DNA of 64,000 nucleotides from Chloroflexota bacterium (GTDB lineage Bacteria; Chloroflexota; UBA11872): positions 62,001 through 126,000 of the forward strand of contig JAPOYR010000009.1 of NCBI GenBank assembly GCA_026706485.1, read 5' to 3'. The notes beneath the pieces were generated by a model. The model saw only the letters and a list, made by a program, of their open reading frames with translations, searched no databases and was not told the origin of the DNA. The translations under genes and the position numbers were made by a program. Positions 1-25,700 of the stretch are shown piece by piece. The stretch's first letter is position 1; every line of letters starts with the position of its first letter.

Positions 1-1573
1 GACCCTGGGCAGGCTGATTAACCTGAGAGAGTTGGATATCCACGACAATCAGCTCACCGGCGAGATTCCGCCGGACGTGGGCCACCTCTTCCAGCTGCGA
101 GCGCTCAGCCTTGGAGGAAACCAACTCACGGGGTCTATCCCGGCGGAGCTGGGCCGGTTGACCGATTTGGCCGAGCTGCTGCTCGGCAGCAACCAGCTGA
201 CCGGTGCGATTCCGGCGACGCTCGGCAACTTAACAAAACTTTGGTGGCTGTCCCTTGGCCACAATCAGTTGTCTGGCGGCATCCCGGCGGAGTTTGGCCA
301 ACTGGTCAACCTGGCGTGGCTGTACCTTGGCGCAAACCAGCTGACCGGGCCGATTCCACCAGAGCTTGGCGAACTGGTGAAATTGGACGAGCTCTGGCTC
401 TACGACAACCAGTTGACCGGTCCGATCCCGGCGTCGCTAGGACGCCTCACCAAACTGGGGACGCTCTATCTCCACGGAAACCAGTTGTCGGGGCCGATCC
501 CGGCTACGCTGGGCCAGCTGGAAAGGGTGTGGGAGTTCAAGCTCTACGACAACCAGTTGACCGGTCCGATCCCACCCGAATTAGGCGATTTGGCGAATGT
601 GTCGGTTCTCGGACTATCCAACAACCAGTTGACTGGCACCATCCCGCCGGAATTGGGAAATCTGCCGAAGCTGACGGGCCTTGGTCTTGCTTTCAACCGG
701 TTAACGGGGGCTATCCCGCCGGAACTGGGCAACTTGCCGAAGCTGACGGGCCTTGGTCTCGCTTCCAACCAGTTGACTGGGACTATTCCAGCGAACTTGG
801 GCAACTTGGTGAATCTGACGGCGCTGGACCTCTCGAACAACCAACTCACGGGCCCCATCCCAAACGAAATGTCTCGACTGACCCAACTCCACCACCTGAT
901 CCTTCACAACAACCGGCTCACGGGGACGATTCCGACGGAGTTCGGCGAAGTCAGAAGCCTGACGCGGCTGCACCTCGACCACAATCAGTTGACCGGGCCG
1001 ATTCCTGCGGAGTTGGGCACGCTTCGCAATCTTGACGAGTTGCGCCTAGGGGCCAATCAACTCACGGGAACAATTCCCCAGGAGCTTGGCCAGCTGCGAT
1101 CCCTAAGGCGGCTGATGCTTGACGACAACCAATTGACTGGCCCGATCCCCGCAGCACTTGGGCAACTGACTGAACTCAGCGTGCTGGACCTGAGTTCCAA
1201 CCAGTTGATGGGGCCGATTCCGGCGGAGCTGGGCGGGCTGGAAAGGGTGTACGAGCTCCGCCTGGCAAACAATCAGCTCACCGGACCGATTCCAGGTGAG
1301 CTCGGCGAAATGCGGAGCCTTCAATTCCTGCATCTCAACGACAACCAACTGACCGGTGAAATCCCCGTGGAGTTGAGCGGCCTGATCAGCATGAGCAAGC
1401 TGGATCTCAGCTCTAACCAGTTCGAAGGCCCCATTGCGCCCGCGTTGGGGCGGTTGGGCAATCTTCAGTTTCTCCGCGTCGGAAACAATCAGCTCACGGG
1501 CTGCTTGCCGGTGGTCTGGAAAAAGATCCCCGACAACGATGTCGAAGCTGACGGGCTTTCCTTCTGCGGGTAG
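1..1573 (+). CDS. Leucine-rich-repeat protein, N-terminus outside window
   Basis: The reading frame is open from base 2, so the gene begins upstream of the window and only its C-terminal part is visible. The visible protein is an uninterrupted array of 21 LRRs of 24 residues with the consensus LxxLxxLxLxxNQLTGxIPxELGx. This is the plant-receptor-like LRR class also found in secreted bacterial proteins. The array closes with a Cys-bearing last repeat (NQLTGCLPVVW) and a short Cys-containing tail (LSFCG), the usual C-cap. Repeats 10 and 11 (about 661-800) are nearly identical at DNA level, a sign of recent repeat duplication. The 1912-residue protein at 22.8-28.5 kb ends in the same kind of array and cap, so the missing N-terminus here may also carry a signal peptide and propeller domains (inference). 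A role in extracellular binding or adhesion is likely; the ligand is unknown. Confidence 0.9.
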   Translation, partial: TLGRLINLRELDIHDNQLTGEIPPDVGHLFQLRALSLGGNQLTGSIPAELGRLTDLAELLLGSNQLTGAIPATLGNLTKLWWLSLGHNQLSGGIPAEFGQLVNLAWLYLGANQLTGPIPPELGELVKLDELWLYDNQLTGPIPASLGRLTKLGTLYLHGNQLSGPIPATLGQLERVWEFKLYDNQLTGPIPPELGDLANVSVLGLSNNQLTGTIPPELGNLPKLTGLGLAFNRLTGAIPPELGNLPKLTGLGLASNQLTGTIPANLGNLVNLTALDLSNNQLTGPIPNEMSRLTQLHHLILHNNRLTGTIPTEFGEVRSLTRLHLDHNQLTGPIPAELGTLRNLDELRLGANQLTGTIPQELGQLRSLRRLMLDDNQLTGPIPAALGQLTELSVLDLSSNQLMGPIPAELGGLERVYELRLANNQLTGPIPGELGEMRSLQFLHLNDNQLTGEIPVELSGLISMSKLDLSSNQFEGPIAPALGRLGNLQFLRVGNNQLTGCLPVVWKKIPDNDVEADGLSFCG

Positions 1574-1636: not shown

Positions 1637-2569
1637 CTAGCGACGCGCGGCGCCGCTGCCGCCAGCAACCACACCCCCGCCGACGACTCGGCGGTCATGC
1701 ACCGCGACGAGGCCCGGCAGGCGAGTCCGCGCGTGGTGCGCGGCCCAGCCGATGCGGTCGGCGTCGTCCGCGAAGAGCAGCCCCAGCACGGTGCCGCTGT
1801 GCGCGACGTTGACGCCGACGGCTCCGGCGGCCTGTGCCAGCTCGAGCACCGTCGCGAGCTGCGGCTTGGGGAGCACCGCCTGGTTCGCCAGGCTGCTCAG
1901 CGTCGCGCCCTCGCCGACGAGCTTTGCGTCTCCGTCGGCCAATCCGGCTGTGATGAGGTTCAGGGCGTCGCGAAACCGCGAGGCGTGGGATCGAAGCTCG
2001 GCGCGTCGGTCCACCGCGTTGAAGGCCTCGGTATCGACCTCGTCGGCAAACTCCAGCGCGAGGACGCGCATCGGAGGCGGGTCTCCCAGCGACCGGGCCA
2101 CACGACCGCCGCGGTGATCGAAGAGCGCGATGCCGGGCAGCATCACGCCGTCGCTTGGCTCCACGTACAGCGCCAGGTCGGCCTGTTGCCGCGGCGACAC
2201 CGCCGCGCCCAAGGCCGCCGCCGTCGCACCGATGGTCGCCGCCACGTCGGCCGTGCTGCTGGCCATGCCCTTGGCTCGCGGCAGCGACCTCTCCAAGCTC
2301 AGGCGAGCGTCCAGGTCTCGATGCCCGAGAAACTCCAGCGCGAGCGCCACGGCCCGGCGGGCCTTGGGAGCGTTGGCGGGACCGTCGACACATCCGGCGC
2401 CGTCCGATACCTCAACCGTCGCCGTCGAGCCCATGTCGATGGGACAGGTCACCATCACGGTCGTGCCGTCCAACTCGCCCTGGGCTAGCTCGCCGCAGGT
2501 GCCCGGCGCCCAAGCCACGCCGCGCGCGACGACGCCTTCGGCCGGATCAGCGCAGAGCGATGAAGTCAC
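1637..2569 (-). CDS. pduX: L-threonine kinase (GHMP family), cobalamin synthesis
   Basis: A 310-residue GHMP-family kinase. It shows the N-terminal APGTCGEL stretch typical of PduX and the glycine/serine-rich ATP loop LPRAKGMASSTADVAA. PduX phosphorylates L-threonine to L-threonine-O-3-phosphate, which CobD then decarboxylates to supply the aminopropanol linker of cobalamin. The assignment is strengthened by position: it is the last gene of a cbiB-cobD-cobQ-pduX operon, and its GTG start overlaps the cobQ TGA stop (GTGA). The main alternative would be another GHMP kinase such as homoserine kinase, but the cobalamin context argues against it. The end is convergent with the LRR gene, with about 60 bases between them. 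Confidence 0.85.
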   Translation of the reverse strand: MTSSLCADPAEGVVARGVAWAPGTCGELAQGELDGTTVMVTCPIDMGSTATVEVSDGAGCVDGPANAPKARRAVALALEFLGHRDLDARLSLERSLPRAKGMASSTADVAATIGATAAALGAAVSPRQQADLALYVEPSDGVMLPGIALFDHRGGRVARSLGDPPPMRVLALEFADEVDTEAFNAVDRRAELRSHASRFRDALNLITAGLADGDAKLVGEGATLSSLANQAVLPKPQLATVLELAQAAGAVGVNVAHSGTVLGLLFADDADRIGWAAHHARTRLPGLVAVHDRRVVGGGVVAGGSGAARR

Positions 2570-4092
2570 CGCTCGAGACCTGTCAGGCCATAGATCAATC
2601 CCATGTCGAGGTGCTCACGCACCAGCGACGCCAGCTTGTCGTACTCGGCGTTCGGCTCGATGTCGTCATGGTCGGTCGGCAGGCTGAGCCCGCGCCGCGC
2701 GCCGGCGCAGGCCAGAATCGAGCGGCGCACGTCCCGATTGTGAAAGAGGCCGTGCAGATAGGTGCCCAGCGTCAGGCCTTCGGCATCCATTGCCCCGTCC
2801 GAGAAGTCGATGCGTTGTCCAGACTGCTCCTCCACCAAAAAGGGACTGGAACAGTCTGTGGCCGTGGTCACCCCCATGTGGATTTCGTAGGCGACGACCT
2901 GCGCGCCCCTGCACCGGCTCAGTAGACCCTGGCTCCCGGCGACCCGCGCCTTGACCTGATACGTCGCCTTGTCCGAATGAAATCTAGTAGTGGCCGGCAG
3001 GAGCCCCAGGCCCGGCGTCTCTGCTGCCCGCGATTCAACCGAGTCCGGATCCAACAGCCGCTCGCCAAGCATCTGGTAGCCCGCGCAGATGCCGATCACC
3101 GGCATCCCACGGCGACGCGCCTTCGTGATGCGGTCGGCCAGGCCCCGCTCACGCAACCAGCCAAGATCGGCCACCGTGGTCTTGCTCCCGGGGATGACCA
3201 CCAGGTCCGGATCGCCAAACTCAGACGCCCGTGCCACGAGTCGCACCCGCACCCCGGGCTCGTGCCGCAGCGGATCGAAGTCGTCGAAGTTGGCGATTCG
3301 CGGCAGCCGCATCACGGCAACGTCGATTGCCGCCTTGTCGTCGATCGTTGGGTCTGCCACCAGACCGACCGAATCTTCCTCCGGAATGTGGATGTCCGTG
3401 AAATACGGCACCACGCCCACCACCGGTGCGCCGGTGCGTTCGCGCAGGAACTCCAGGCCCGAGTCCAGCAGCGAGGGATCGCCGCGAAACTTATTGATCA
3501 CGTGCCCGCCGACGAGCGCCCGCTCCTCCGGCTCCAGAAGCTCCATCGTCCCGACGAGCTGGGCGAAGATCCCGCCGCGATCAATGTCGCCCACCAGCAG
3601 CACCGGCGCCTGGGCGTGGAGCGCGACCCGCATGTTGACGATGTCGTGCTGCTTGAGGTTGATCTCCGCGGGGCTCCCGGCGCCCTCGATCACCACAACG
3701 TCAAACTCTGCTCGCAACCGATCGAGCGCCGCCGTTACCGTCGACCACATCTCGGGCTTGAGTTGCTGGTACTCGCGCGCCGAGGCGGCGGCCTGCGGCC
3801 GGCCCAGCAGCACCACCTGGGAGCGGCGGTCGCCCTCGGGCTTGAGCAGGATGGGGTTCATGTCCACGCTCGGGGCCGCCAGCGCCGCCGCGGCCTGCAC
3901 CGCCTGGGACCGGCCAATCTCGCCGCCGTCGGGCGTGGCGTAGGAATTCAGGGACATGTTTTGCGCCTTGAAGGGCGCAACCTGAAATCCGTCCTGGGCG
4001 AAGATGCGGCACAAGGCCGTCGCCACGACCGACTTGCCCGCATGCGACGACGTGCCCTGGACCATCAGCACTTTGGCGCGGCGGCTACCCAT
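2566..4092 (-). CDS. cobQ: Cobyric acid synthase
   Basis: A 508-residue CobQ/CbiP. It catalyses ATP- and glutamine-dependent amidation of side chains b, d, e and g of adenosylcobyrinic acid a,c-diamide. The N-terminal domain is dethiobiotin-synthetase-like with the nucleotide loop VQGTSSHAGKS. The C-terminal half is a glutamine-amidotransferase domain with its catalytic Cys in VIGICAGYQMLG and a late His in AYEIHMG. The frame is open further upstream, but the ATG at 4092 (MGSRRAKVLMVQG) matches the family N-terminus and overlaps the end of cobD by only 8 bases. Starts further upstream would intrude into cobD coding sequence. The stop overlaps the pduX start, so the pair is translationally coupled. 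Confidence 0.93.
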   Translation of the reverse strand: MGSRRAKVLMVQGTSSHAGKSVVATALCRIFAQDGFQVAPFKAQNMSLNSYATPDGGEIGRSQAVQAAAALAAPSVDMNPILLKPEGDRRSQVVLLGRPQAAASAREYQQLKPEMWSTVTAALDRLRAEFDVVVIEGAGSPAEINLKQHDIVNMRVALHAQAPVLLVGDIDRGGIFAQLVGTMELLEPEERALVGGHVINKFRGDPSLLDSGLEFLRERTGAPVVGVVPYFTDIHIPEEDSVGLVADPTIDDKAAIDVAVMRLPRIANFDDFDPLRHEPGVRVRLVARASEFGDPDLVVIPGSKTTVADLGWLRERGLADRITKARRRGMPVIGICAGYQMLGERLLDPDSVESRAAETPGLGLLPATTRFHSDKATYQVKARVAGSQGLLSRCRGAQVVAYEIHMGVTTATDCSSPFLVEEQSGQRIDFSDGAMDAEGLTLGTYLHGLFHNRDVRRSILACAGARRGLSLPTDHDDIEPNAEYDKLASLVREHLDMGLIYGLTGLER

Positions 4093-5143
4093 GCGCCAGC
4101 ACGTCCCGCAGCGCCGCCACGAGCCGGGCGCACTCCTCGGGCCGGCGCACGGCAATGCGAATGAAGTCGGGCAGGCCAAACGACGTGCAGTCCCTCACCA
4201 GGATTCGCCGACGCAGCAACGCACGGCGCACACCGGCGGCATCGCCCACCCGCACCAGCATGAAGTTGGCGGCCGAGGGAACCGCCGGCACGCCCAGGGC
4301 GGCAAGCTGTGCCTGAAGCTGGGCCTTGGATTCCGCGATGACCTCCCGCGCGGCGGCCACGTGTGCCGCGTCCGCGAGCGCGGCAAGGCCCACTGCCTGC
4401 GCCACGGCATTCACGCTCCACGACGGCTGGAGATGACGGCTGGCTTCAACCACCGGCGGCGGCGCCGCCATGTAGCCCAGCCGCACGCCGGCCACCGCAT
4501 GGTCCTTGGTCATTGAGTGCAGCAACGCCACATTGCCGCGTTGCAGCAGCGGCAGCGCGTCCCATCCGGCGTCGGCCAGCGGCACGTATGACGTGTCCAG
4601 CGCCAGCAGCCCGTCCGGGCCCACGGCCGCGCACAGCCGCTCCACGGATTCACGATCCAGGTAGACGCCGGTGGGATTGTTCGGGTTGCACAGAAACACC
4701 AGCGCCGGACGCGTTGCCGCGATAGTCTCCACCGCCGCGTCGATGGACCACCGAAATCCATCCGCCGCGGCGGACACCACAAACTCCATGTGCGCGCCGG
4801 TAGCATCCGCCGCCGCTTCGTACTCTCCGAATGTCGGCGCGAACACCAGGCAGGTGGACCAAGGCGGCACATGGGCGTGAGCCAGCAAGTGGATCAGCTC
4901 CGTCGATCCGTTGCCAACCAACAGCTGATCGACGCCGACGCCAAGTCTGACGGCCAGCGCCTCACGCAGAATCAGGCACTCACGATCGGGATAGGCCGAG
5001 AGGTCCGCCTCGGCCGCGGCCTGCCGCACTCGCGGCGACGGTCCCAGCGGATTGATATTGGAGCTGAAGTCCAACACCTGGTCACGCGTCAGGTTCGCGG
5101 CACGCAATTCGGCGGTGTCGAATCCCCCGTGCACCGTGGACAT
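4085..5143 (-). CDS. cobD: Threonine-phosphate decarboxylase (fold-type I PLP)
   Basis: A 352-residue PLP enzyme of the class I/II aminotransferase fold. It has the substrate-binding N-terminal phrase DFSSNINPLGPSP, the cofactor region FLCNPNNPTG and the Schiff-base lysine in LHSMTKDHAVAGVRLGY. CobD decarboxylates L-threonine-O-3-phosphate to (R)-1-amino-2-propanol phosphate. Histidinol-phosphate aminotransferase has the same fold and is the main alternative. Placement between cbiB and cobQ, with the threonine kinase pduX in the same operon, supports the cobalamin role. I chose the ATG at 5143 (MSTVHGGFDTAELR) over the longer frame because HGG after a short leader is typical of CobD. It also leaves a 19-base gap after cbiB. 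Confidence 0.88.
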   Translation of the reverse strand: MSTVHGGFDTAELRAANLTRDQVLDFSSNINPLGPSPRVRQAAAEADLSAYPDRECLILREALAVRLGVGVDQLLVGNGSTELIHLLAHAHVPPWSTCLVFAPTFGEYEAAADATGAHMEFVVSAAADGFRWSIDAAVETIAATRPALVFLCNPNNPTGVYLDRESVERLCAAVGPDGLLALDTSYVPLADAGWDALPLLQRGNVALLHSMTKDHAVAGVRLGYMAAPPPVVEASRHLQPSWSVNAVAQAVGLAALADAAHVAAAREVIAESKAQLQAQLAALGVPAVPSAANFMLVRVGDAAGVRRALLRRRILVRDCTSFGLPDFIRIAVRRPEECARLVAALRDVLAHG

Positions 5144-5162
5144 GTTGGGTGGCGTGGTCCGG

Positions 5163-6119
5163 TCAACCGGTAATCGCGTGGCGCGCGGCCAGCACGCCCA
5201 GCGAAACGACGACGGCAAGCGCCGCCGTCCGATTGACGATCGTCACGGCGCGGCCGATGTCGGTAGCCTCCGGGTCGCGGAACCCCTCGCCCAGTCGGTA
5301 GTGCCCCGGCTTCTCCAAGCAGACTCCCAGCAGCCCCGCCATCGCGCTCATGGTCAATCCCGCATTTGGGCTGGCCGTCGTGCCGCCATCGCGCCGCATT
5401 GTGCGCCAGGCGCGGCCCACCGGATGCCGCGCCAGCCGGCCACTCGCCAGCAGCAGCAACGCGCTCAATCGGGCGGGAATCAGATTCGTCAGGTCGTCCA
5501 GCCGAGCGGCTGCCTTGCCCAGGTACTCGGTCGTCCCGCGGTAGCCCACCATGCTGTCCATGGTGTTCAGCGCCCGATAGGCGATGGCGCCCGGCACGCC
5601 GAAGACCGCAAACGCCAGCCAGGGCCCCACGAAGCTGTCGGAGGTGTTTTCGGCCACGGACTCGATCGCCGCGGCGGCCACCAGCGGCGGGGCAAGCGCG
5701 GCGGCGTTGCGGCTGACCAGGCTGCGCAGGCTCTCCCGCGCGGCATCCAGCCGACCCTCGGCCAGCGCCCGCCTGGTCCGATGCACCGCCGCCGTCAACC
5801 CAGTCACCGCGAACGCCGTGCGCAGCACCACGGCCCCGGCGATCAGGTACGCAATCGGATGTATGGCGGCCAGCGCAGCCAAACCGAACCACGCGGCGGC
5901 GCCCGCACCGCCCACGACTGCGGCCACCATCATGCAGCCGAAGGCAAAGGCGGCGACCGGCTGCTGCGGAGCGACTCGTCGCAGCGCCCCCGTGACCTTC
6001 CCGATCCAGACGACTGGGTGCAACGCGTTGGGCGGTTCCGGCAGCAGCAGGTCCAACAACACGGCAGCCAGAAGGACCGCCGCGTCCCAGATCAAGTTGT
6101 CCAGCCACGGTGAGAGCAT
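5163..6119 (-). CDS. cbiB: Adenosylcobinamide-phosphate synthase (CbiB)
   Basis: A 318-residue integral membrane protein that condenses adenosylcobyric acid with aminopropanol (phosphate), giving adenosylcobinamide (phosphate). Family marks are the N-terminal hydrophobic segment followed by DLLLPEPPNALHPVVWIGK, the central SVAENTSDSFVGPW and the RYRALNTMDSMVGY-type motif (seen as YRALNTMDSMVGYRG). Several hydrophobic helices are evident. It is the first gene of the four-gene cobalamin operon. The sequence upstream shows no B12-box or conserved cobalamin-riboswitch core that I can recognise, so the mode of regulation is unknown. Confidence 0.93.
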   Translation of the reverse strand: MLSPWLDNLIWDAAVLLAAVLLDLLLPEPPNALHPVVWIGKVTGALRRVAPQQPVAAFAFGCMMVAAVVGGAGAAAWFGLAALAAIHPIAYLIAGAVVLRTAFAVTGLTAAVHRTRRALAEGRLDAARESLRSLVSRNAAALAPPLVAAAAIESVAENTSDSFVGPWLAFAVFGVPGAIAYRALNTMDSMVGYRGTTEYLGKAAARLDDLTNLIPARLSALLLLASGRLARHPVGRAWRTMRRDGGTTASPNAGLTMSAMAGLLGVCLEKPGHYRLGEGFRDPEATDIGRAVTIVNRTAALAVVVSLGVLAARHAITG

Positions 6120-6513
6120 GGTGCTACCTCACTCTACGTTGGCGCGCCAAGCACGAATAACGCTCCTGATGTCGGTTGTCTGGCACCACGGTGAAACGCG
6201 GTGCTACTGCCCGTGGAAACCTGCGCGTGATCTTTCGTCATTCCCGCGGAGCCTGTCCCCACGCAGGCGGGGAACGGGAATCTACCCTTCATTGAACCTG
6301 GGGCGAATGGGAAGCGCCGGGTCATCCTCAAGCTTGGCTGGATTCTGCGAAGGTCTCCGTTGGCAGCACACACCCGGCTCTTCGATCGGCACCGCCCTCC
6401 CTGCTCACCGCGCCGGCGATTGACGACTCCCAAAGAAACCGGTGAATTTCCGAAAACCGAGGGAACGATTCGGTCCCCGGCGGCGTAATCTCTTGCGGGG
6501 GAATCCCGTGATC
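6120..6513. other. Divergent intergenic region with dispersed repeat
   Basis: Gap between the divergent cbiB and RCC1-type genes. Positions about 6235-6350 hold a copy of a dispersed repeat: a TTCCCGCGGA start, then a GGGAAT-C-ACCCTTC-TTGAACCTGG core and a CTGGATTCTGCGAAGGTC-like tail. Related copies lie at 14875-14983 and, inverted and shorter, at 57071-57120. No riboswitch or clear promoter was recognised. A GTG at 6442 is in frame with the downstream gene and could be an alternative start. Confidence 0.6.
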
Positions 6514-9500
6514 ATGGGCCAAAAAGGCATGCAGGCGCGCAATCTAGCTCGTGGACGCCGCCGATTGCCTGGGATCGCTGCGCTATTCGCGGTTGCCCTT
6601 GTCGTGGCTGTTGCCGCCGCGGCCGCGCCCACCTTCCGCTCGCCCGCGGCGGCACTTGATTGCGAGGGCGTTGGCCTCGACGACGGCTGCCTCTTCACCA
6701 TCACCGGCGGCGACACCATCGATCCCAATGACGGCTTCGCTGTGACCAACGGTGGCGGCGTGCCGCTGTGGGACTTCGTCCGCGACCGCGACCTCCAGGC
6801 TCTCGGCTATCCCATCAGCCAGCGCTGGGTCAGCGGCCCGTTCACGCTGCAGGCCTTTCAAAAGGCCATCCTCCAGTGGGACCCCGGCAAGTCCCGCATG
6901 AACTACTACAACACCCTCGATGTGCTGGCGAACCGGTACCCCGAGGTCGAGCTACCCAACGTCCCGTCGCACCAGGTGCTCGAGGCCGATCGAGGGGCCA
7001 ACTTCGCCACCATCACCCGCAATCACCTGGCACTGCTGGACCAGAACGCGGCCATCAAGGAGCGGTTCCTCGGCGAGCCCGACTGGCTGAATCTCTACGG
7101 CTTGCCGATTCGCTATGAGGAGCGGGAGGTCAACGGCAATCCCCAAGGCCTTCAGCTGCTGCGCGCCCAGCGCACCGTCTTCGTGATCTGGAACGTACCC
7201 GCGCCCGGGACCACGGTCGGCCGCGTCAACCTGCAGAACGTGCCGGACAAGGTGAAGCGGCTGAGCAACGTGATCATTCCGGACGCCGCCAAGGCGCCCG
7301 TCGCGCGGCACGAGGTCGCGGGATTGCCGGTGTTCACGCTCACGCCGCCCTCGGCTGCCCAGTCCCAACAGACGACGGCCGGCGCGCGGTTCATCGCCAT
7401 CAGCAGCGGCGACTATCACAGCTGCGCGCTGCGGGCCGACGGAGAGCCCGTGTGCTGGGGCGTTCAGGACGGCGCCCAGCGGCCCGGCTTTGGGCAGGTT
7501 GGCTTCGGCCAGTCCAATCCGCCTGAGGGGGAGCGGTTTGCGGCCATTGACTCCGGCGGACAGCACACCTGCGCCTTGCGCCAGGACGGGACCGCGGTCT
7601 GCTGGGGACGCGACAACTGGGGCCAGGCCTCGCCGCCTGACGGCGAACGCTTCGTGTCCATCAGCAGCGGCTCCTACCACACCTGCGGCCTCCGGGCGGA
7701 CGGCAGGGCCGTGTGCTGGGGAAGCGATCAATCCGGTGAGTCCACACCTCCGGAAGGCGAGCGTTTCACCGTCGTCAGCAGCGGCTCCGGTCACACTTGC
7801 GGGCTGCGCGCGGACGGAATCCCCGTGTGCTGGGGGCCCGAGCCGTACTGGGACGGCCACACGGGATGGGAAGCGCCCCCCGAGGTGCCGCTGCTCGTGG
7901 TGGACAGCGCCTATGGCTACACCTGCGGCATTGAGCTCGACGGCTCGCCGATCTGCTGGGGCGCGCGATCGGACGTGGTCTACAGCGGCCAATATCCGCG
8001 CGGCTACCAGCGCCTCACCGCCATCAGCGGGCGTGAAATGGCTGGGCAGGGCGGTTGCGGTCTTTGGACCAACGGCACGGCCGTTTGCTGGGGCTGGGTC
8101 GATCCACCGCCGGAGCGGCAGAAGTTCAGCGCCATCAGCAGTGGTCGGGAGCACACCTGCGGCATTCGCCGCGATGACGGGGCGTTGGTGTGCTGGGGCA
8201 GCGACGAATATGGCGAGTCGTCGCCGCCCGGGGGCGAGCACTTCCAGGGACCCGAGGAATTCCCACCCAAGCCGACCGGTCCCGACGTTCCCCTGAAGTC
8301 GATCAGCAGCGGTGGTGTGCATGTCTGCGGCCTCGATGCCAGCGGCACAGCCTGGTGCTGGGGCGACGATGGGTATGGGCGGTCATCGCCCCCGGTCGGC
8401 CAGAAATTCGCATCCGTCAGCAGCGGCTGGGCCCACACCTGCGGTGTGCGGCTGGACGGCGCCATTGCCTGCTGGGGCGAGGATGACTTCGGCCAGGCGG
8501 CGCCGCCCGCCGGCGGGGGATTCGTCGCCGTCAGCAGCGGCTCGAACCATACTTGCGCCCTGCGGTCCGATGGCGCCGCCGTCTGTTGGGGCAGCGACCG
8601 TGTCGATCAAACCTCGGTGCCCGAAGGCGAGCGATTTACCGCCATCAGCAGCGGCTGGTCCCACACCTGCGGCCTCCGGGCTGACGGCACGGCGGTGTGC
8701 TGGGGCAGCGACCTGTTTGGTCGCGGGTCTCCGCCGGCGGGCGAGACATTCACCGCCATCAGCGGCAGCTGGGTGCACACCTGCGGGCTGCGGCCCGACG
8801 GTACGGCGGTTTGCTGGGGCGACAACGACGAGGGCCAGGCCTCGCCGCCTGCCGGCGAGCGGTTGGTCAGCATCAGCGCCAACGCCTCCCACACCTGCGG
8901 CCTGCGAGCCGACGGCACGCCCGTTTGCTGGGGAGCGATTCAATATTTCTTCGGTTACGCCCAGGACGCCGGCCAGGCGTCCCCGCCACCCGGGGAGCGG
9001 TTCGTCGCCATCAGCAGCGGCTTTCGATTTACCTGCGGACTCCGCGCGGACGGGTCACACCGGTGCTGGCGCTTCGGGCCCGGCACGGAAATCCCCGAAG
9101 GCCTGAGCACCCGCGGTTTCGAGGCGGTCAGCGGTCAGGTGCTCACCTCGATCAGCAACGGCCATCGCTTCACCTGCGCGCTTGATCCAAGCGGCGCCCC
9201 CGTCTGTTGGGGCATGGACGATTACGGCCAAGCGTCGCCGCCGGCCAATGAGCGATTCGTGGCTCTCAGCAGCGGGGAGCGGCATGTCTGCGCCCTGCGG
9301 TCGAACGGCACGCCGGTTTGCTGGGGCGATCCGTCGAGCGGCCGGACGGCGCCGCCGTCCGGCGAGAGCTTCACAACTCTTAGCAGCGGCTTTGCGCACA
9401 CGTGCGCCCTGCGGGCGGACGGCACGCCGGTCTGCTGGGGCTGGAACGGGCAGGGCCAGGCGTCGCCGCCGGACGGCGAGCAGCTTGTCGCCATCAGCAG

Positions 9501-12500
9501 CGGACACGTGCACACGTGCGGCGTGCGCGGGGACGGCGCGGCGGTCTGCTGGGGCGAAAACGAGGACGGCCAGGCCTCACCCCCCGAAGGAGCGCAATTC
9601 GTATCGATCAGCAGCGGCGCCAACCACACCTGCGCCCTGAACGCCGATGGCAGCCCGTTCTGCTGGGGTGATGAGGACGACGCCGTAGCGCGCGCGCCGA
9701 CCGTCGACCAGTACGACTCGATCGCCAGCGCCGCGCGCTACGCCTGCGGCCTGCGGCCGGACGGCACGCTGAATTGCTGGGGCGAGGGCGCGTTGGGAGC
9801 TCCACCGGGCGTCACGCTCTCGGCCGTCAGCTTGGGGTATGTGCACAACTGCGGCCTGCGCCAGGACGGACGACCCGTCTGCTGGGGCGATGGCTACGAA
9901 ACCCCGGTGGCCTCGGCGGGGCGCTCCACCTACGAGATCATCAGCGAGCAGCGGGTTCGCGCGGTCAGCGGCGGCTACGGACACACCTGCGCCCTGCGCG
10001 AGGATGGCCGCCCGGTGTGCTGGACGCTCACCAACGGCTATCCCAACCTCAGCGGCGAGCTCTCGGTGCCCTATGGCGAGCAGTTCACCACCCTCAGTAG
10101 CGGCGGCGGACACACCTGCGCCTTGCGGGACGACGGCACCGTCGTGTGCTGGGGCTCTGACCATGCCGGAGAGTCCACGCCGCCGGCGGGCGACCGCTTC
10201 ACCGCGGTGAGCAGCGGATTCGGGTTCACCTGTGGCCTGCGCCAGGACGGCGTCGCCGTCTGCTGGGGGAGCGATGAGGATGGCCAGTCGTCGCCTCCCG
10301 AAGGCGAGCGATACATCGCCATCAGTAGCGGGATGGGCCTCTACAAGGCGCACACCTGTGCCCTGCGCGAGGACGGGTCCGCCGTCTGCTGGGGCGCCAA
10401 CGACGAAGGGCAGGCTTCGCCGCCGGCCGACGAACGCTTCATGGACATCGCCAGCGGCGCCGTACACACCTGTGGTCTGCGCTTGGACGGCACCGCCGTC
10501 TGTTGGGGTTTCGACTGGGACCGCCAGGCCTCGCCGCCGGCGGGACTCACCTTCACCGCCATCACCGCCGGTCGCGCTCACACCTGCGCCATCCGCGCCG
10601 ACGACAAGACCGCCGTTTGCTGGGGATCGAGCCACGACTTCCTCTACGACTATCAGGGTCAGGCCAGGCCGCCCTATGGAGAGACCTTTTCCGCCATCAG
10701 CGCCGGCCAGGACCAGACCTGCGGCGTGCGGGCGACGGACTCGACCCTGATCTGCTGGGGCGAGGGACCGGGCCACCGATCCGGCTATCCCAAGGAGAAA
10801 CCCTTCGACGACGTTAGCGGCGAATCGTTGGCGTCGATCAGCGCCGGCAACGGCCACATCTGCGGCCTGCGTAACGATGGAACGGCCGTTTGCTGGGGTG
10901 ACAACGAGATTGGTGAGGCCAACCCGCCGCCGGAGACATTTAGCGCCATCAGCGCCGGGGGCGACCACACGTGCGCCCTGCGGGCCTCCGATGGCGAGGC
11001 TATCTGCTGGGGCAGCAACCGTACACCCGAAGGCAAGTTCGCCGGCTATCGCAATCAGGCGCTGCCGCCTCGCGGCGAATCATTCGTCGCCATTGCCAGC
11101 GGTTCATTGCACACCTGCGCCCTCAAGGCCGACGGCCAGGTCGTCTGCTGGGGCGGTTGGTTCGACGATGACGACGCGGAGCCGCCGGCCGGTGAGCGAT
11201 TCACGACCATTGCCAGCGGCGGCGAAAGCACCTGTGCGCTGCGTCAGGACGGCTCGGCGATGTGCTGGAGTGTGGGCTACCGGCTTTGGGAATCGACGCC
11301 GGCGCACGAGCGCTTCGTGGCGCTGGGAATGGGCCAGTCGCACGCGTGCGGCATCCGCGGCGACGGCTCGACGGTGTGCTGGGGCGGCTCCCGACGAGGC
11401 CAATCGATCGCGCCGGACCATGAGCGGCTGGTCGCGGTGACCGGCGGCCACTCCCACACCTGCGGACTGCGGCCCGACGGCACGGCCGTGTGCTGGGGCA
11501 TCAACTACGAACCGTCGTACGGCGCCTGGTACGGCCAGGCGCATCCGCCGCGCGGCGAGCAGTTCACGGCAATCAGCGCCGCCGCCCATTTCACCTGCGC
11601 GTTGCGCCAGGACGGCTCACCCCACTGCTGGGGCGAGGGCTACGACACTCCCGAACCGGAGCGCACGACCTATGCGGACATCGCCAACGAGACCTTCGTG
11701 GCCGTCGACGCCGGCTGGGACTACACCTGCGGCCTGCGTCCGGACGGAACCACGGTTTGCTGGGGCAATCAGCTGCCGGACCCGGAGCAATCGGGGCGCT
11801 GGGGCGACTATGCGCGCGAATGGCCGCCGGAAGGCGAGCGATTCACTGCCATCAGCACCGGCACGTCGTTCACCTGCGGTCTGCGAGCGGACGGCGCCGC
11901 GATTTGCTGGGGCGAAAATACGAACGGCGCGGCCTTCCCCCCGCGGGATGAGACGTTCGTCGCCATCACCTGTGGCAACTCCGACTCGTGCGGCCTGCGG
12001 AGCGACGGGACCGTCGTGTGCTCGGGCTTCGTCAACAGCGTTCGCGGTGGACACTATTTGCCGGCAGAGCTTCAGGGCGAGCGGTTTAATGCAATCAGCT
12101 ACGGCGACTTCCATGTCTGCGCGCTTCGCGCGGACGGATCGCCGGTCTGTTGGGGGAGCAACCGGAACGGTGAGGCGGCGCCACCCGAGGGCGAGCGGTT
12201 CGCGGCAATCAGCGGCGGCTCCAGCCACACCTGCGCCCTGCGAGCCGATGGCTCGCCGGTCTGTTGGGGGAAGGACGACTACGGCCAGGCGGCGCCGCCC
12301 GAGGGCGAACGCTTCACCGCGATCAGCAGCGGCGCGAGCCACACCTGCGCCCTGCGGGCAGACGGCGCCGCCGTCTGCTGGGGCGCGGCGCTGGGCGACA
12401 CCTACGTTCTGTCCGGACGCACCTACGAAGTCGGCTTTGGCCAGGCGGCGCCGCCAGCTGATGAGCGATTCGCTTCCATCAGCAGTGGCGCGAGCCACAC

Positions 12501-12564
12501 CTGCGGCCTGCGATTCGACGGAAAGGTCGTCTGCTGGGGCCAGGGGTACACGGACGCCGGCTAG
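6514..12564 (+). CDS. Giant secreted RCC1-type repeat protein (42 repeats, 6 x 7)
   Basis: A protein of about 2016 residues. The N-terminus is Arg-rich and followed by a hydrophobic stretch (IAALFAVALVVAVAAAAAP), a probable signal peptide. Next comes a domain of roughly 240 residues with phrases such as LGYPISQRWVSGPFTLQAF, which I cannot assign. From 7390 to the end there are 42 RCC1-like repeats of about 38 residues, pattern FxAISSGxxHTCxLRxDGxxVCWGxDxxGQxxPPxGE. Nearly all carry two Cys, suggesting intra-repeat disulfides outside the cell. Every seventh repeat (7, 14, 21, 28, 35) ends in a long atypical linker without the PPxGE turn, and repeat 42 ends the protein. It therefore reads as six seven-bladed propellers starting at 7390, 8293, 9142, 9955, 10828 and 11695. 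The ATG at 6514 is preferred over the in-frame GTG at 6442 because it gives a more normal signal peptide. Function unknown, probably extracellular binding. Confidence 0.88.
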   Translation: MGQKGMQARNLARGRRRLPGIAALFAVALVVAVAAAAAPTFRSPAAALDCEGVGLDDGCLFTITGGDTIDPNDGFAVTNGGGVPLWDFVRDRDLQALGYPISQRWVSGPFTLQAFQKAILQWDPGKSRMNYYNTLDVLANRYPEVELPNVPSHQVLEADRGANFATITRNHLALLDQNAAIKERFLGEPDWLNLYGLPIRYEEREVNGNPQGLQLLRAQRTVFVIWNVPAPGTTVGRVNLQNVPDKVKRLSNVIIPDAAKAPVARHEVAGLPVFTLTPPSAAQSQQTTAGARFIAISSGDYHSCALRADGEPVCWGVQDGAQRPGFGQVGFGQSNPPEGERFAAIDSGGQHTCALRQDGTAVCWGRDNWGQASPPDGERFVSISSGSYHTCGLRADGRAVCWGSDQSGESTPPEGERFTVVSSGSGHTCGLRADGIPVCWGPEPYWDGHTGWEAPPEVPLLVVDSAYGYTCGIELDGSPICWGARSDVVYSGQYPRGYQRLTAISGREMAGQGGCGLWTNGTAVCWGWVDPPPERQKFSAISSGREHTCGIRRDDGALVCWGSDEYGESSPPGGEHFQGPEEFPPKPTGPDVPLKSISSGGVHVCGLDASGTAWCWGDDGYGRSSPPVGQKFASVSSGWAHTCGVRLDGAIACWGEDDFGQAAPPAGGGFVAVSSGSNHTCALRSDGAAVCWGSDRVDQTSVPEGERFTAISSGWSHTCGLRADGTAVCWGSDLFGRGSPPAGETFTAISGSWVHTCGLRPDGTAVCWGDNDEGQASPPAGERLVSISANASHTCGLRADGTPVCWGAIQYFFGYAQDAGQASPPPGERFVAISSGFRFTCGLRADGSHRCWRFGPGTEIPEGLSTRGFEAVSGQVLTSISNGHRFTCALDPSGAPVCWGMDDYGQASPPANERFVALSSGERHVCALRSNGTPVCWGDPSSGRTAPPSGESFTTLSSGFAHTCALRADGTPVCWGWNGQGQASPPDGEQLVAISSGHVHTCGVRGDGAAVCWGENEDGQASPPEGAQFVSISSGANHTCALNADGSPFCWGDEDDAVARAPTVDQYDSIASAARYACGLRPDGTLNCWGEGALGAPPGVTLSAVSLGYVHNCGLRQDGRPVCWGDGYETPVASAGRSTYEIISEQRVRAVSGGYGHTCALREDGRPVCWTLTNGYPNLSGELSVPYGEQFTTLSSGGGHTCALRDDGTVVCWGSDHAGESTPPAGDRFTAVSSGFGFTCGLRQDGVAVCWGSDEDGQSSPPEGERYIAISSGMGLYKAHTCALREDGSAVCWGANDEGQASPPADERFMDIASGAVHTCGLRLDGTAVCWGFDWDRQASPPAGLTFTAITAGRAHTCAIRADDKTAVCWGSSHDFLYDYQGQARPPYGETFSAISAGQDQTCGVRATDSTLICWGEGPGHRSGYPKEKPFDDVSGESLASISAGNGHICGLRNDGTAVCWGDNEIGEANPPPETFSAISAGGDHTCALRASDGEAICWGSNRTPEGKFAGYRNQALPPRGESFVAIASGSLHTCALKADGQVVCWGGWFDDDDAEPPAGERFTTIASGGESTCALRQDGSAMCWSVGYRLWESTPAHERFVALGMGQSHACGIRGDGSTVCWGGSRRGQSIAPDHERLVAVTGGHSHTCGLRPDGTAVCWGINYEPSYGAWYGQAHPPRGEQFTAISAAAHFTCALRQDGSPHCWGEGYDTPEPERTTYADIANETFVAVDAGWDYTCGLRPDGTTVCWGNQLPDPEQSGRWGDYAREWPPEGERFTAISTGTSFTCGLRADGAAICWGENTNGAAFPPRDETFVAITCGNSDSCGLRSDGTVVCSGFVNSVRGGHYLPAELQGERFNAISYGDFHVCALRADGSPVCWGSNRNGEAAPPEGERFAAISGGSSHTCALRADGSPVCWGKDDYGQAAPPEGERFTAISSGASHTCALRADGAAVCWGAALGDTYVLSGRTYEVGFGQAAPPADERFASISSGASHTCGLRFDGKVVCWGQGYTDAG

Positions 12565-22590: not shown

Positions 22591-22791
22591 GCGCACAGGC
22601 TAGGTGACTGAAGTCGCGCAAGTCGATTCGAGTTTTGACCGAAAAACGACCATCGAAACCGGGCAGTCGCTGCCGTTGCCTTCGCCTTCACTCCGTGACT
22701 GGTCGATAACCTGCGAGCATGGCACTCCGTCTGCGCTCGCTGCCCTAGAATGCGCGGCCTGCCAGGTGCAGGCTCCGGTGAGTGCGAGCAA

Positions 22792-25700
22792 ATGCGAGCA
22801 TGGTGGCGGCGGGCGGCTCTCGCGGGCCTCGTGGTCCTTGCCGTGGGCGCCACGTACGGTGCCGTGGAGTCCAAGCCTGCCGTTTCGCCGCCTGCGGCGC
22901 GTGCGGTCGTCGAGCCGAGCCCGGCGCCGGTCTCGGCCCCAGAGGCAACCGGCGGCGCGACGCCGCAAGCCACGCCCACGCCCACTGCGACGCCGTCGCC
23001 CACTCCGCCCTCCAGCCAAACGGCGCTCTTCCTGGGTCTGCAGCCCGGCGTTGGCACGCGGGACGATGCCTTCGGTCAGTTCCTCCAAACCAGTTGGCGC
23101 ACCGTCTTCGAAGCGTTAACGACGGCTGAGCAAACGTGCATTCGGGGCGAACTGGGAGTCACGCAGTTGGCGTCGGCCCTCCGCGGAGTATTGCTTCAAT
23201 TCATCTCCCCGCTGGCGCCCTGGCACGCGGACTTCTTTCGCTGTCTCGAGCCGGAGACAGCCCTGCGCGTGTTCATCTTTTGGTGGGGCGAGGGCTGGCA
23301 CGACGTCAGCGAAAACAGCCTCAGCTGCGCCCGGGAGTTTCTGGGCCCAACGGATATTGCGGACTTCTTGGCTGGAGAGCTTCCGGACGCCACTTCCGAA
23401 AGCGCCGAAGTCTCGCGGCGCGTCTATCGCGGTCTCCTCGCCTGCAACATTCAGCCGCTGCGTGGCTCGTTGGTCAATTCGATCTCGGGAAACAGCGAGG
23501 AAGAGGGCTTGTGCTTCCACACCAAGGTTAGTGAGGCGGTGATCGCGTCACTCCTGGGACGGGCGACCGCGGCTGACGCTCCCCCGTGGCAGGAGCAGAT
23601 GTTGAGCTGTTTGACGGACTCAACGGTCGGCAGCTTGCTATTCGACCTGCTTCCCACCGCGTCCGGCGGGGTCTTCAGAGACGAAGAAGATTGCGTTCGC
23701 CGGGAGTTCACCGAGGCCCAGATCGCGAGCGGGATGCCGTCGAGGACGAGTTCGGATCATGCCGCGGCCCGCCAAGCCTTGGTCGATCGGCTGCGGACCT
23801 GCATTCCCGATCTGGAGCTCGCGGGCGAAGACGCGCACCCCGTGGAGCGCCGGCTTGGAATGTGGGGCGACTCGGATAGCTCGTGCATCAACATTGAGAT
23901 CGGAGAAGCGTTTCTAGGGTTGGTGCTCGGCAAGCCCTATCGGCCAAATCCCGAATTGGTGATGAAGGCGCAGGGCTGCCTGCATCCCAGGCTAGGGGCG
24001 GCAGCGTTTCTGGCATTGCTATCGCGGGAAATCGACGGGCTGACCGGCGACCACCAATCCTGTGTGCGGTCGCATCTCGCCGATTCGCGATTTGGAATCT
24101 TCCTGCTCCCCGACGCGAGCCCCGGGAGCGCCCCCGCATTCCAGGAATTCGTTGCCGGCCATCGCGCCTGCCTGTCGGATGTGATTTCGTCAGACGGTGA
24201 CGGCATTGGACGAGCGAATCGCAGTCCCGCTCCGCTTTGGCAGTCTTCGACCGGCGGTTCCGTCGTTCCGGCTCCGACCGTCAGCGGCGGCGTGCTCTAC
24301 GCCGGATCGGATGACGCCCACGTTTACGCTCTCGACACGGGCACCGGCGAGCTGCGGTGGAGCTTTGCCACCGGCGGCGCCGTCAGATCCTCGCCGACGG
24401 TAGCCGACGGAGTCGTCTACGCGGGATCCGACGACGCCCACCTTTACGCGCTGGACGCCGGCACCGGCGAGTTGCGGTGGAAGTTCGACACCGGAGATCC
24501 GGTGAAATCTCGACCCACCGTCAGCGGTGGAATGGTCTTTCTCAGTGCGCGAGATCAGGGGGTGCACAAGCTGCATGCCGTCAATGCGGCATCGGGCGAG
24601 CGAGTCTGGGTCGCAGCGATTCCAATTGCGTTCGATCCCGGAATCGCGCCAACCGTTTCGGGGTCTCGGGTGTTCGTGGCCAGCGTTGACGGCGACCTTT
24701 ACGCGCTGCATGCGTCGACCGGCGAAGTCGCCTGGACGTTTGACACGCCATCGCCCCCAGCAGCCCAACCGGTTACCGCCGGGGGAAGGGTCTTCCTCAT
24801 GACGGCCGGCGATGTCTACGCCGTCGATGAGGACGACGGTCGGATGATCTGGAGCGACTATTTCTGGTCGGTCGACTACGAACGTCAACCACTTCCGCCG
24901 CTCGTCGTCGAAGACGTCGTCTATGTGTCAAGCGGCCGGCAACTCTTTGGCCGCGATGCCGCCACCGGCCAGACGGTCATGGTGTTGGGGGCGGACGGCT
25001 TCATCGACACGCTGCCCGCGCTTCATGAGGGGCTCGTGTTCATCGGTTCCGATGGAGGCCAGCTCTATGCGAGGGATCCGCTGGGGGAGGGCGTCGTCTC
25101 CGATCAACTGATCTGGGGGGTCGACATCGGCCCTCGGACGCTACGCCATCCCGTGGTTGCCAATGGCATCCTCTACGCCCAATCCAACGATGGACGGCTC
25201 GAGGCCTTCAACGCCGCCAATGGGCAGCTGATCTGGTCACTTGATCTGGGCGAGCGAAGGGGTCGGCGATCCTTCACCGTCGTTGAGAACACGGTATATG
25301 TCGGATCTGCCGACGGCAGCGTCTATGCCCTGAAAACCGAGACGCCCGAAGTCGTGGAAGTGACGCCCACGCCGGTTCCCGCGGAGACACCGACACCGCG
25401 GGAATCCGTCGTTGTCACGGAAATCCAGTCGGTCCCTATTCAGACCTCTTCGATGACCTCCAACGACGAACGGGCCGAAATCAGCGTCGGCGGTGGCGAC
25501 TCTGGTCTCACGCTTCGTGCGCGATGGGAATTGCCCGACAACTCGTTGATCTGGGGCCCGAAAGACTCGAATAGTATCTATTTCATTGTCGGCTCACGCG
25601 TATATCGAATTGGGACCGACGGTTCGTCGGTCGAGTTCGTGGTGGATGCCGCCACGGAGATGCGCCGGTTGGCCGGTCGGGAGTATCAACACTGGGCCTT

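Follow-up and report, generated by a model that had tools for sequence, protein, structure and literature searches.

A Chloroflexota protein with 42 RCC1-type repeats, probably arranged as six seven-bladed propellers, and its relatives with repeat numbers mostly in multiples of seven

In a 64,000-nucleotide stretch of the genome of a Chloroflexota bacterium (GCA_026706485.1, contig JAPOYR010000009.1, positions 62,001 to 126,000; the whole stretch is called the window here, and nucleotide positions are counted from its first letter), a single open reading frame (ORF) encodes a protein of 2040 residues with exactly 42 RCC1-type repeats. Most probably, this is an exported protein in which an N-terminal module is followed by six directly joined seven-bladed propellers of the RCC1/BLIP-II/crinkly type, in an array that changes by whole rings. 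Each repeat of about 38 residues would make one three-stranded blade, and each ring would consist of repeats 7n+1 to 7n+7. As a rule, the number of repeats per protein corresponds to whole rings of seven, in the window (42 = 6 x 7) as well as in relatives with 7 to 49 repeats.

Repeat number and set boundaries

The repeats extend from residue 314 to residue 2036, and their number was obtained both with a regular expression for the cysteine pair and with a hidden Markov model (HMM) made from the repeats of the protein itself, confirming the 42 repeats of a preliminary description of this DNA and its placing of repeat 42 at the protein end. The curated Pfam family model RCC1_2 also matches the protein (E 1.3e-234, 39 stretches). 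The repeat consensus is roughly GERFxAISSGxxHTCGLRADGTxVCWGxxxxGQASPP, and the repeats of the array are only about 50% identical to one another. Both cysteines are present in 42 of the 42 repeats, with nine residues between them in 38 repeats and ten in 4, and a tryptophan follows in nearly all.

When the array is split after every seventh repeat, six sets of similar length are obtained, as the preliminary description had stated. From repeats 7, 14, 21, 28 and 35 to the repeat that follows, the spacing is 56, 47, 46, 47 and 44 residues, respectively, compared with a median of 38. The mean at every seventh junction is 48.0 residues, against 38.7-42.8 in the other phases (permutation p = 0.005, all phases), and three orthologues likewise have their longest spacing in this phase (p 5e-5 to 1.5e-4). 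The long linkers claimed for these five places are therefore real on average. A PPxGE turn, said to be lost there, did not prove to be a clean marker of the boundaries and was rejected as such: the exact motif occurs at 17 of the 41 junctions, and repeat 7 is among those that carry it (SSPPGGE, with an insert rich in prolines behind it). If the turn is defined more loosely, as P-P or A-P immediately ahead of the following repeat, all 5 boundaries lack it, as against 6 of the 36 remaining junctions (Fisher p 6e-4). The set boundaries are thus marked by junction length together with the missing turn. Additionally, four of the five linkers between sets end in a segment resembling strand 1 of a repeat (GFEAVS, TYEIIS, PFDDVS, TYADIA), and these short ends may help ring closure. 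The gene and the putative propellers, placed by repeat count and every-seventh split, are as follows (bp, base pairs).

6442..12564, + strand: whole ORF, 2040 residues, GTG start as listed; orthologues L056 and L062 (91% identity) and L057 (88%)
7381..8283, + strand: propeller 1, repeats 1-7 with a proline-rich linker, 903 bp
8284..9132, + strand: propeller 2, repeats 8-14 with a linker ending in strand-1-like GFEAVS, 849 bp
9133..9945, + strand: propeller 3, repeats 15-21 with a linker ending in TYEIIS, 813 bp
9946..10818, + strand: propeller 4, repeats 22-28 with a linker ending in PFDDVS, 873 bp; closed in predicted model A2 (see below)
10819..11685, + strand: propeller 5, repeats 29-35 with a linker ending in TYADIA, 867 bp; model A3 closes repeats 25-31 instead
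11686..12561, + strand: propeller 6, repeats 36-42, ending the protein (CWGQGYTDAG), 876 bp

Alternatively, translation may begin at an internal ATG near 6514 or 6529.

Repeat counts among relatives and change of the array

Among 61 relatives with complete ORFs, made non-redundant as 80% clusters, 50 have a repeat number that is an exact multiple of seven (binomial p 4e-32). Most of these carry 7 repeats (23 proteins) or 14 (19 proteins), and the rest carry 21 (4), 28 (1), 42 (1) or 49 (2). In the relatives with at least 10 repeats the proportion is 27 of 35 (p 1e-16), and no excess was found when moduli 4-6 and 8-12 were tested on the counts. Orthologues of the same genus have either 42 repeats (L056, L057) or 49 (L049), and every complete copy in the sister genus has 49; the spacing of the 49-repeat set hardly differs between six complete bins. 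The more distant orthologue L067 has 33 repeats in frame and 2 after a frame change, giving 35, and L131, L114 and L119 arrive at 28, 14 and 7 when split or weak repeats are counted in. A second set of proteins from other Chloroflexota families displays the same tendency, with 24 of 43 raw counts at multiples of seven (p 2.6e-10), and some of its counts of 8 or 24 are explained by split half-repeats at ring start and end, as in L151 (see below).

In alignments with the 49-repeat orthologues, each of sets 1-4 of the window protein pairs with the set of the same number. The ring identities to L049 are 59.8, 59.9, 74.9 and 54.3%, propeller 3 being the best kept set (75%). In repeat-level alignments, the net gap of seven repeats relative to the 49-repeat proteins falls after repeats 28-34, varying with the gap cost, and the gap of L067 lies near the array start, at repeats 5-11. 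It appears that whole propellers, not single blades, were gained and lost. Period-seven identity was sought in five proteins and none was seen (p 0.29-0.79), so that the step of seven is visible in the counts only, and duplication of whole rings is not seen directly. The simplest account would be that selection removes blade numbers unable to close. If only seven-blade rings close, changes in repeat number would survive mainly as multiples of seven, and the array would grow and shrink by whole rings, with 42 and 49 repeats in close orthologues and 35 in a more distant one.

Several relatives have peculiarities of their own. L151 (an ORF of 2943 residues on the - strand) is a cysteine-poor RCC1 protein of three rings, each made of a half-repeat, six repeats and another half-repeat; the rings are set apart by stretches of about 85 residues that look immunoglobulin-like, and strand-swapped closure is visible in the sequence. 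In L049, a degenerate fiftieth repeat, possibly a decaying blade, lies at residues ~678-700 in an unusually long linker (94 residues) between sets 2 and 3. L073 has a hybrid repeat of set 1 and set 2 at residues 131-219, resulting in 15 repeats, most likely through an internal deletion or assembly collapse. The title of the record containing L081, a protein of 1288 residues and 21 repeats, names Bifidobacterium breve; the record is probably a metagenome bin under a wrong label. Ahead of the propeller arrays of L051, L054 and L121, tandem modules of about 45-60 residues are found, of the form NVGIYQRxF...AEAACxSDHRDDVRxVFAWAF.

Closest structures, predicted models and rival arrangements

In a sequence search of the PDB, the CRINKLY4 ectodomain (7a0j/7a0k, E 4e-26) and BLIP-II (2e-22) were found, then UVR8 and RCC1, and the best Foldseek match was also CRINKLY4. 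The modelling was done with AlphaFold2 on two fragments of about 1200 residues each, A2 (residues 306-1472) and A3 (residues 841-2040). In both, each repeat is predicted mostly as a three-stranded meander, with a predicted local distance difference test score (pLDDT) of about 60. At a similar pLDDT, A2 contains a ring at fragment positions 858-1151 (residues 1163-1456), consisting of repeats 22-28 and the preceding strand. This ring superposes on BLIP-II with Z 28.2 and a root-mean-square deviation (rmsd) of 2.0 Å over 243 residues, and on CRINKLY4 with Z 25.9-26.7. The seven blades per ring of the preliminary description are well supported by the fold of these relatives and by the multiple-of-seven counts. 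The boundaries are not settled by the models, which support only a seven-bladed ring; they are placed where they are because of the repeat count, the flush ends of the array and the linker phase.

A number of observations weigh against six rings at these boundaries. Both models have low confidence, with a mean pLDDT of 59.6 in A2 and 61.1 in A3 and a predicted template modelling score of 0.35 and 0.38, probably owing to an eligible alignment of only 11-12 sequences. The fragment A2 was cut just after set 4, favouring a ring of repeats 22-28, and the only well-matched ring of A3 comprises repeats 25-31 (about residues 1290-1602) across the junction 28/29 (Z 22, rmsd 3.4 Å). Long loops are also found within sets, at repeats 1, 13, 27, 30, 34, 36 and 41, usually after CWG and with the proline turn kept. 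In many relatives with 14 or 21 repeats the spacing is not increased at the 7/8 junction; linkers are therefore dispensable and do not prove a boundary. Similarity between repeats of the same phase does not exceed that between other repeats (0.504 versus 0.503, p 0.45). True exceptions with full repeats also exist, namely L084 with 8 and L098 and L164 with 15. The proposed check by structure prediction therefore came out divided, as A2 closes at set 4 and A3 does not, and the claim of six rings at the boundaries given is supported by the count, the flush ends, the linker phase, the orthologues and the ring of A2, with the ring of A3, an outcome of the sort that the preliminary description had named as contrary, against it.

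If the seven-bladed rings were in another register, the partial sets at the ends would be open or would pair together or with another chain, and the linkers would be surface loops. Such an arrangement would fit the ring of A3 and the loops of similar length inside the sets. It is nevertheless unlikely, as the first repeat starts right after the N-terminal module and the last one ends the protein, so that incomplete rings would be left; moreover, four proteins have their longest spacing at the seventh junction, single-ring relatives carry exactly seven repeats, and the ring of A2 has the better geometry. Far less probable is an extended structure, or a very large ring or superhelix, in place of separate rings. 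The close relatives of known structure that were found are all seven-bladed rings, and a superhelix would show no preference for multiples of seven, even though the models are of low confidence and 14-repeat relatives with a uniform spacing of 37 residues and without a linker would agree with a continuous structure. The chance that assembly produced the number 42, with near-identical repeats collapsed or expanded in a metagenome bin, is equally slight. Draft bins are common in the clade and L073 does resemble a repeat collapse or deletion, but identities of only about 50% make a short-read collapse unlikely, 42 repeats are also found in two other assemblies of the genus, and the 49-repeat spacing is shared by six bins.

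Six separate seven-bladed rings being preferred, the window protein can be compared with known systems, in which both the propeller fold and the repeat already occur. RCC1, UVR8 and the RCC1-like domains of HERC proteins have the fold superfamily in common with it; their repeats are longer, and they are intracellular with at most few rings and other domains between, HERC proteins carrying more than one ring. LRP-type receptors (e.g. LRP2) have many propellers per extracellular chain, in the form of six-bladed YWTD rings with EGF-like modules between. CRINKLY4/ACR4 (7a0j, 7a0k) is alike in its repeats of about 39 residues, two cysteines ahead of CWG and seven repeats per ring, the spacing of its cysteines being ten residues, C(X10)CWG (PMC4617170), rather than the nine that predominate here. 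However, it is a plant receptor kinase of one ring with a TNFR-like domain and a kinase, whereas the window protein is bacterial with six putative rings; a transmembrane and kinase domain of the CRINKLY4 type after the ring was not found, only RCC1-type Pfam matches being present in the 2040 residues. BLIP-II (1jtd, 3qhy) is likewise an exported bacterial seven-bladed ring with repeats of about 38-40 residues, but it is a single ring and a known inhibitor of beta-lactamase, and it has no cysteine pair per blade; the cysteines are reported to be absent from the template structures used in PMC4617170.

Long blade arrays within one chain were also described among highly repetitive beta-propellers, including RCC1 and BLIP-II groups, by Pereira and Lupas in 2022 (PMC9218822). 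The maximum found there was 47 near-identical WD40 blades whose rings were not assignable, as is sometimes the case with the blade numbers of very long arrays, and it was stressed that no counting system controls the amplification of blades (PMC9218822). Unlike those arrays, the diverged, mature arrays of 42 and 49 blades described here keep to multiples of seven. The open-licence literature yielded no paper on bacterial tandem arrays of RCC1 or crinkly type, and direct arrays of six and seven RCC1-type rings, together with the step-of-seven rule, appear to be new within the open literature searched. In a diverged family of 7 to 49 blades on multiples of seven, ring closure as the unit of selection becomes testable from sequence alone.

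Export, N-terminal module and possible role

Ahead of the array, two features were recognized.

6529..6657, + strand: basic stretch and hydrophobic segment RRRLPGIAALFAVALVVAVAAAAAPTFRSPAAALD in the translation, probably a Sec signal peptide
6634..7359, + strand: N-terminal module of ~240 residues (residues ~65-306), with 17 matches in the genome

The protein is predicted to be exported, as its N-terminal stretch is typical of a signal peptide, and the two cysteines of each repeat most likely form a disulfide. CRINKLY4 repeats were modelled with one disulfide per blade and as extracellular (PMC4617170). Secretion and one disulfide per repeat, as put forward in the preliminary description, would fit this literature, the export-type N-terminus and the complete set of cysteine pairs, although both are read from the sequence. 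Among 746 repeats, both cysteines are present in 745 and neither in one, a weak test of co-occurrence because the HMM selects for cysteines.

The N-terminal module (RWVSGPFTLQAFQKAILQW ... LDQNAAIKERF) has no match in Pfam, NCBIfam or the PDB. It is present at 17 places in the genome, with its other copies at G000:C4, C8, C11, C12 and C2 (L176-L192), and 47 of the 201 Chloroflexota genomes that were sampled carry it. Its payloads include leucine-rich repeat (LRR) arrays, a 14-repeat propeller paralogue, an M23 peptidase, a CAP domain and other exported domains, and further ones resemble metallopeptidase and glycoside hydrolase, judged by eye. The 91% identical orthologue L062 is without it: window positions 6639-7370 have no counterpart there, both flanks match, and the comparison (L062 9558-10348) displays the module as missing like a clean cassette. 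Because exported enzymes as well as binding repeats carry the module, it may serve to target proteins to the surface.

The window comes from a 3.37-Mb genome in 13 contigs, which also encodes the 14-repeat paralogue (L011), and the relatives are Chloroflexota bins; the lineage of the bacterium is best known for sponge symbionts. Many of the relatives are from sponge bins: the jk18x bins come from Ircinia (PMC9531527), and, judging from their names, the COS and RHO bins are probably the Coscinoderma and Rhopaloeides ones of PMC8163846. That sponge Chloroflexi carry eukaryote-like repeat proteins is already known (PMC6306507). Owing to the shared module, the relatives in sponge bins and the eukaryote-like repeat proteins nearby, a polyvalent surface scaffold is favoured as the role, at roughly even odds. 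The protein may well bind proteins or glycans at the cell surface, held by its N-terminal module, and its putative targets are an animal host (probably a sponge), neighbouring microbes or the cell's own envelope matrix. A role directed inward, as a component of an envelope matrix or S-layer-like structure or as an enzyme inhibitor of the BLIP-II kind, is a lesser possibility. It would agree with the fusion of the module to M23 peptidase, CAP and glycoside hydrolase-like proteins, with an occurrence of the module wider than the sponge niche, and with BLIP-II as the nearest bacterial structure. On the other hand, the largest arrays occur in bins from sponge material or similar to such bins, alongside LRR and eukaryote-like repeat proteins.

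A broader and more tentative proposal than the scaffold role is a counting rule in which arrays change only by whole rings, selection removing the numbers that do not close, with the 42- and 49-blade arrays being surface-displayed polyvalent binders on an N-terminal module that swaps payloads. In Chloroflexota, sponge-associated ones included, multi-propeller proteins of the disulfide type, apparently a large class, and a shared N-terminal module emerge from these findings as candidate scaffolds for the surface or for host interaction.

Near the array gene, an LRR protein is encoded at window positions 32-1573, another repeat protein of eukaryote-like type. At positions 22750-28530, a large eukaryote-like protein of 1926 residues has propeller repeats of PQQ/BamB-like and PD40 type ahead of its LRRs. 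Upstream of the array gene, on the opposite strand, positions 2566-6119 contain cobalamin genes for a CobQ/CbiA-type amidotransferase, a class I/II aminotransferase and CobD/CbiB.

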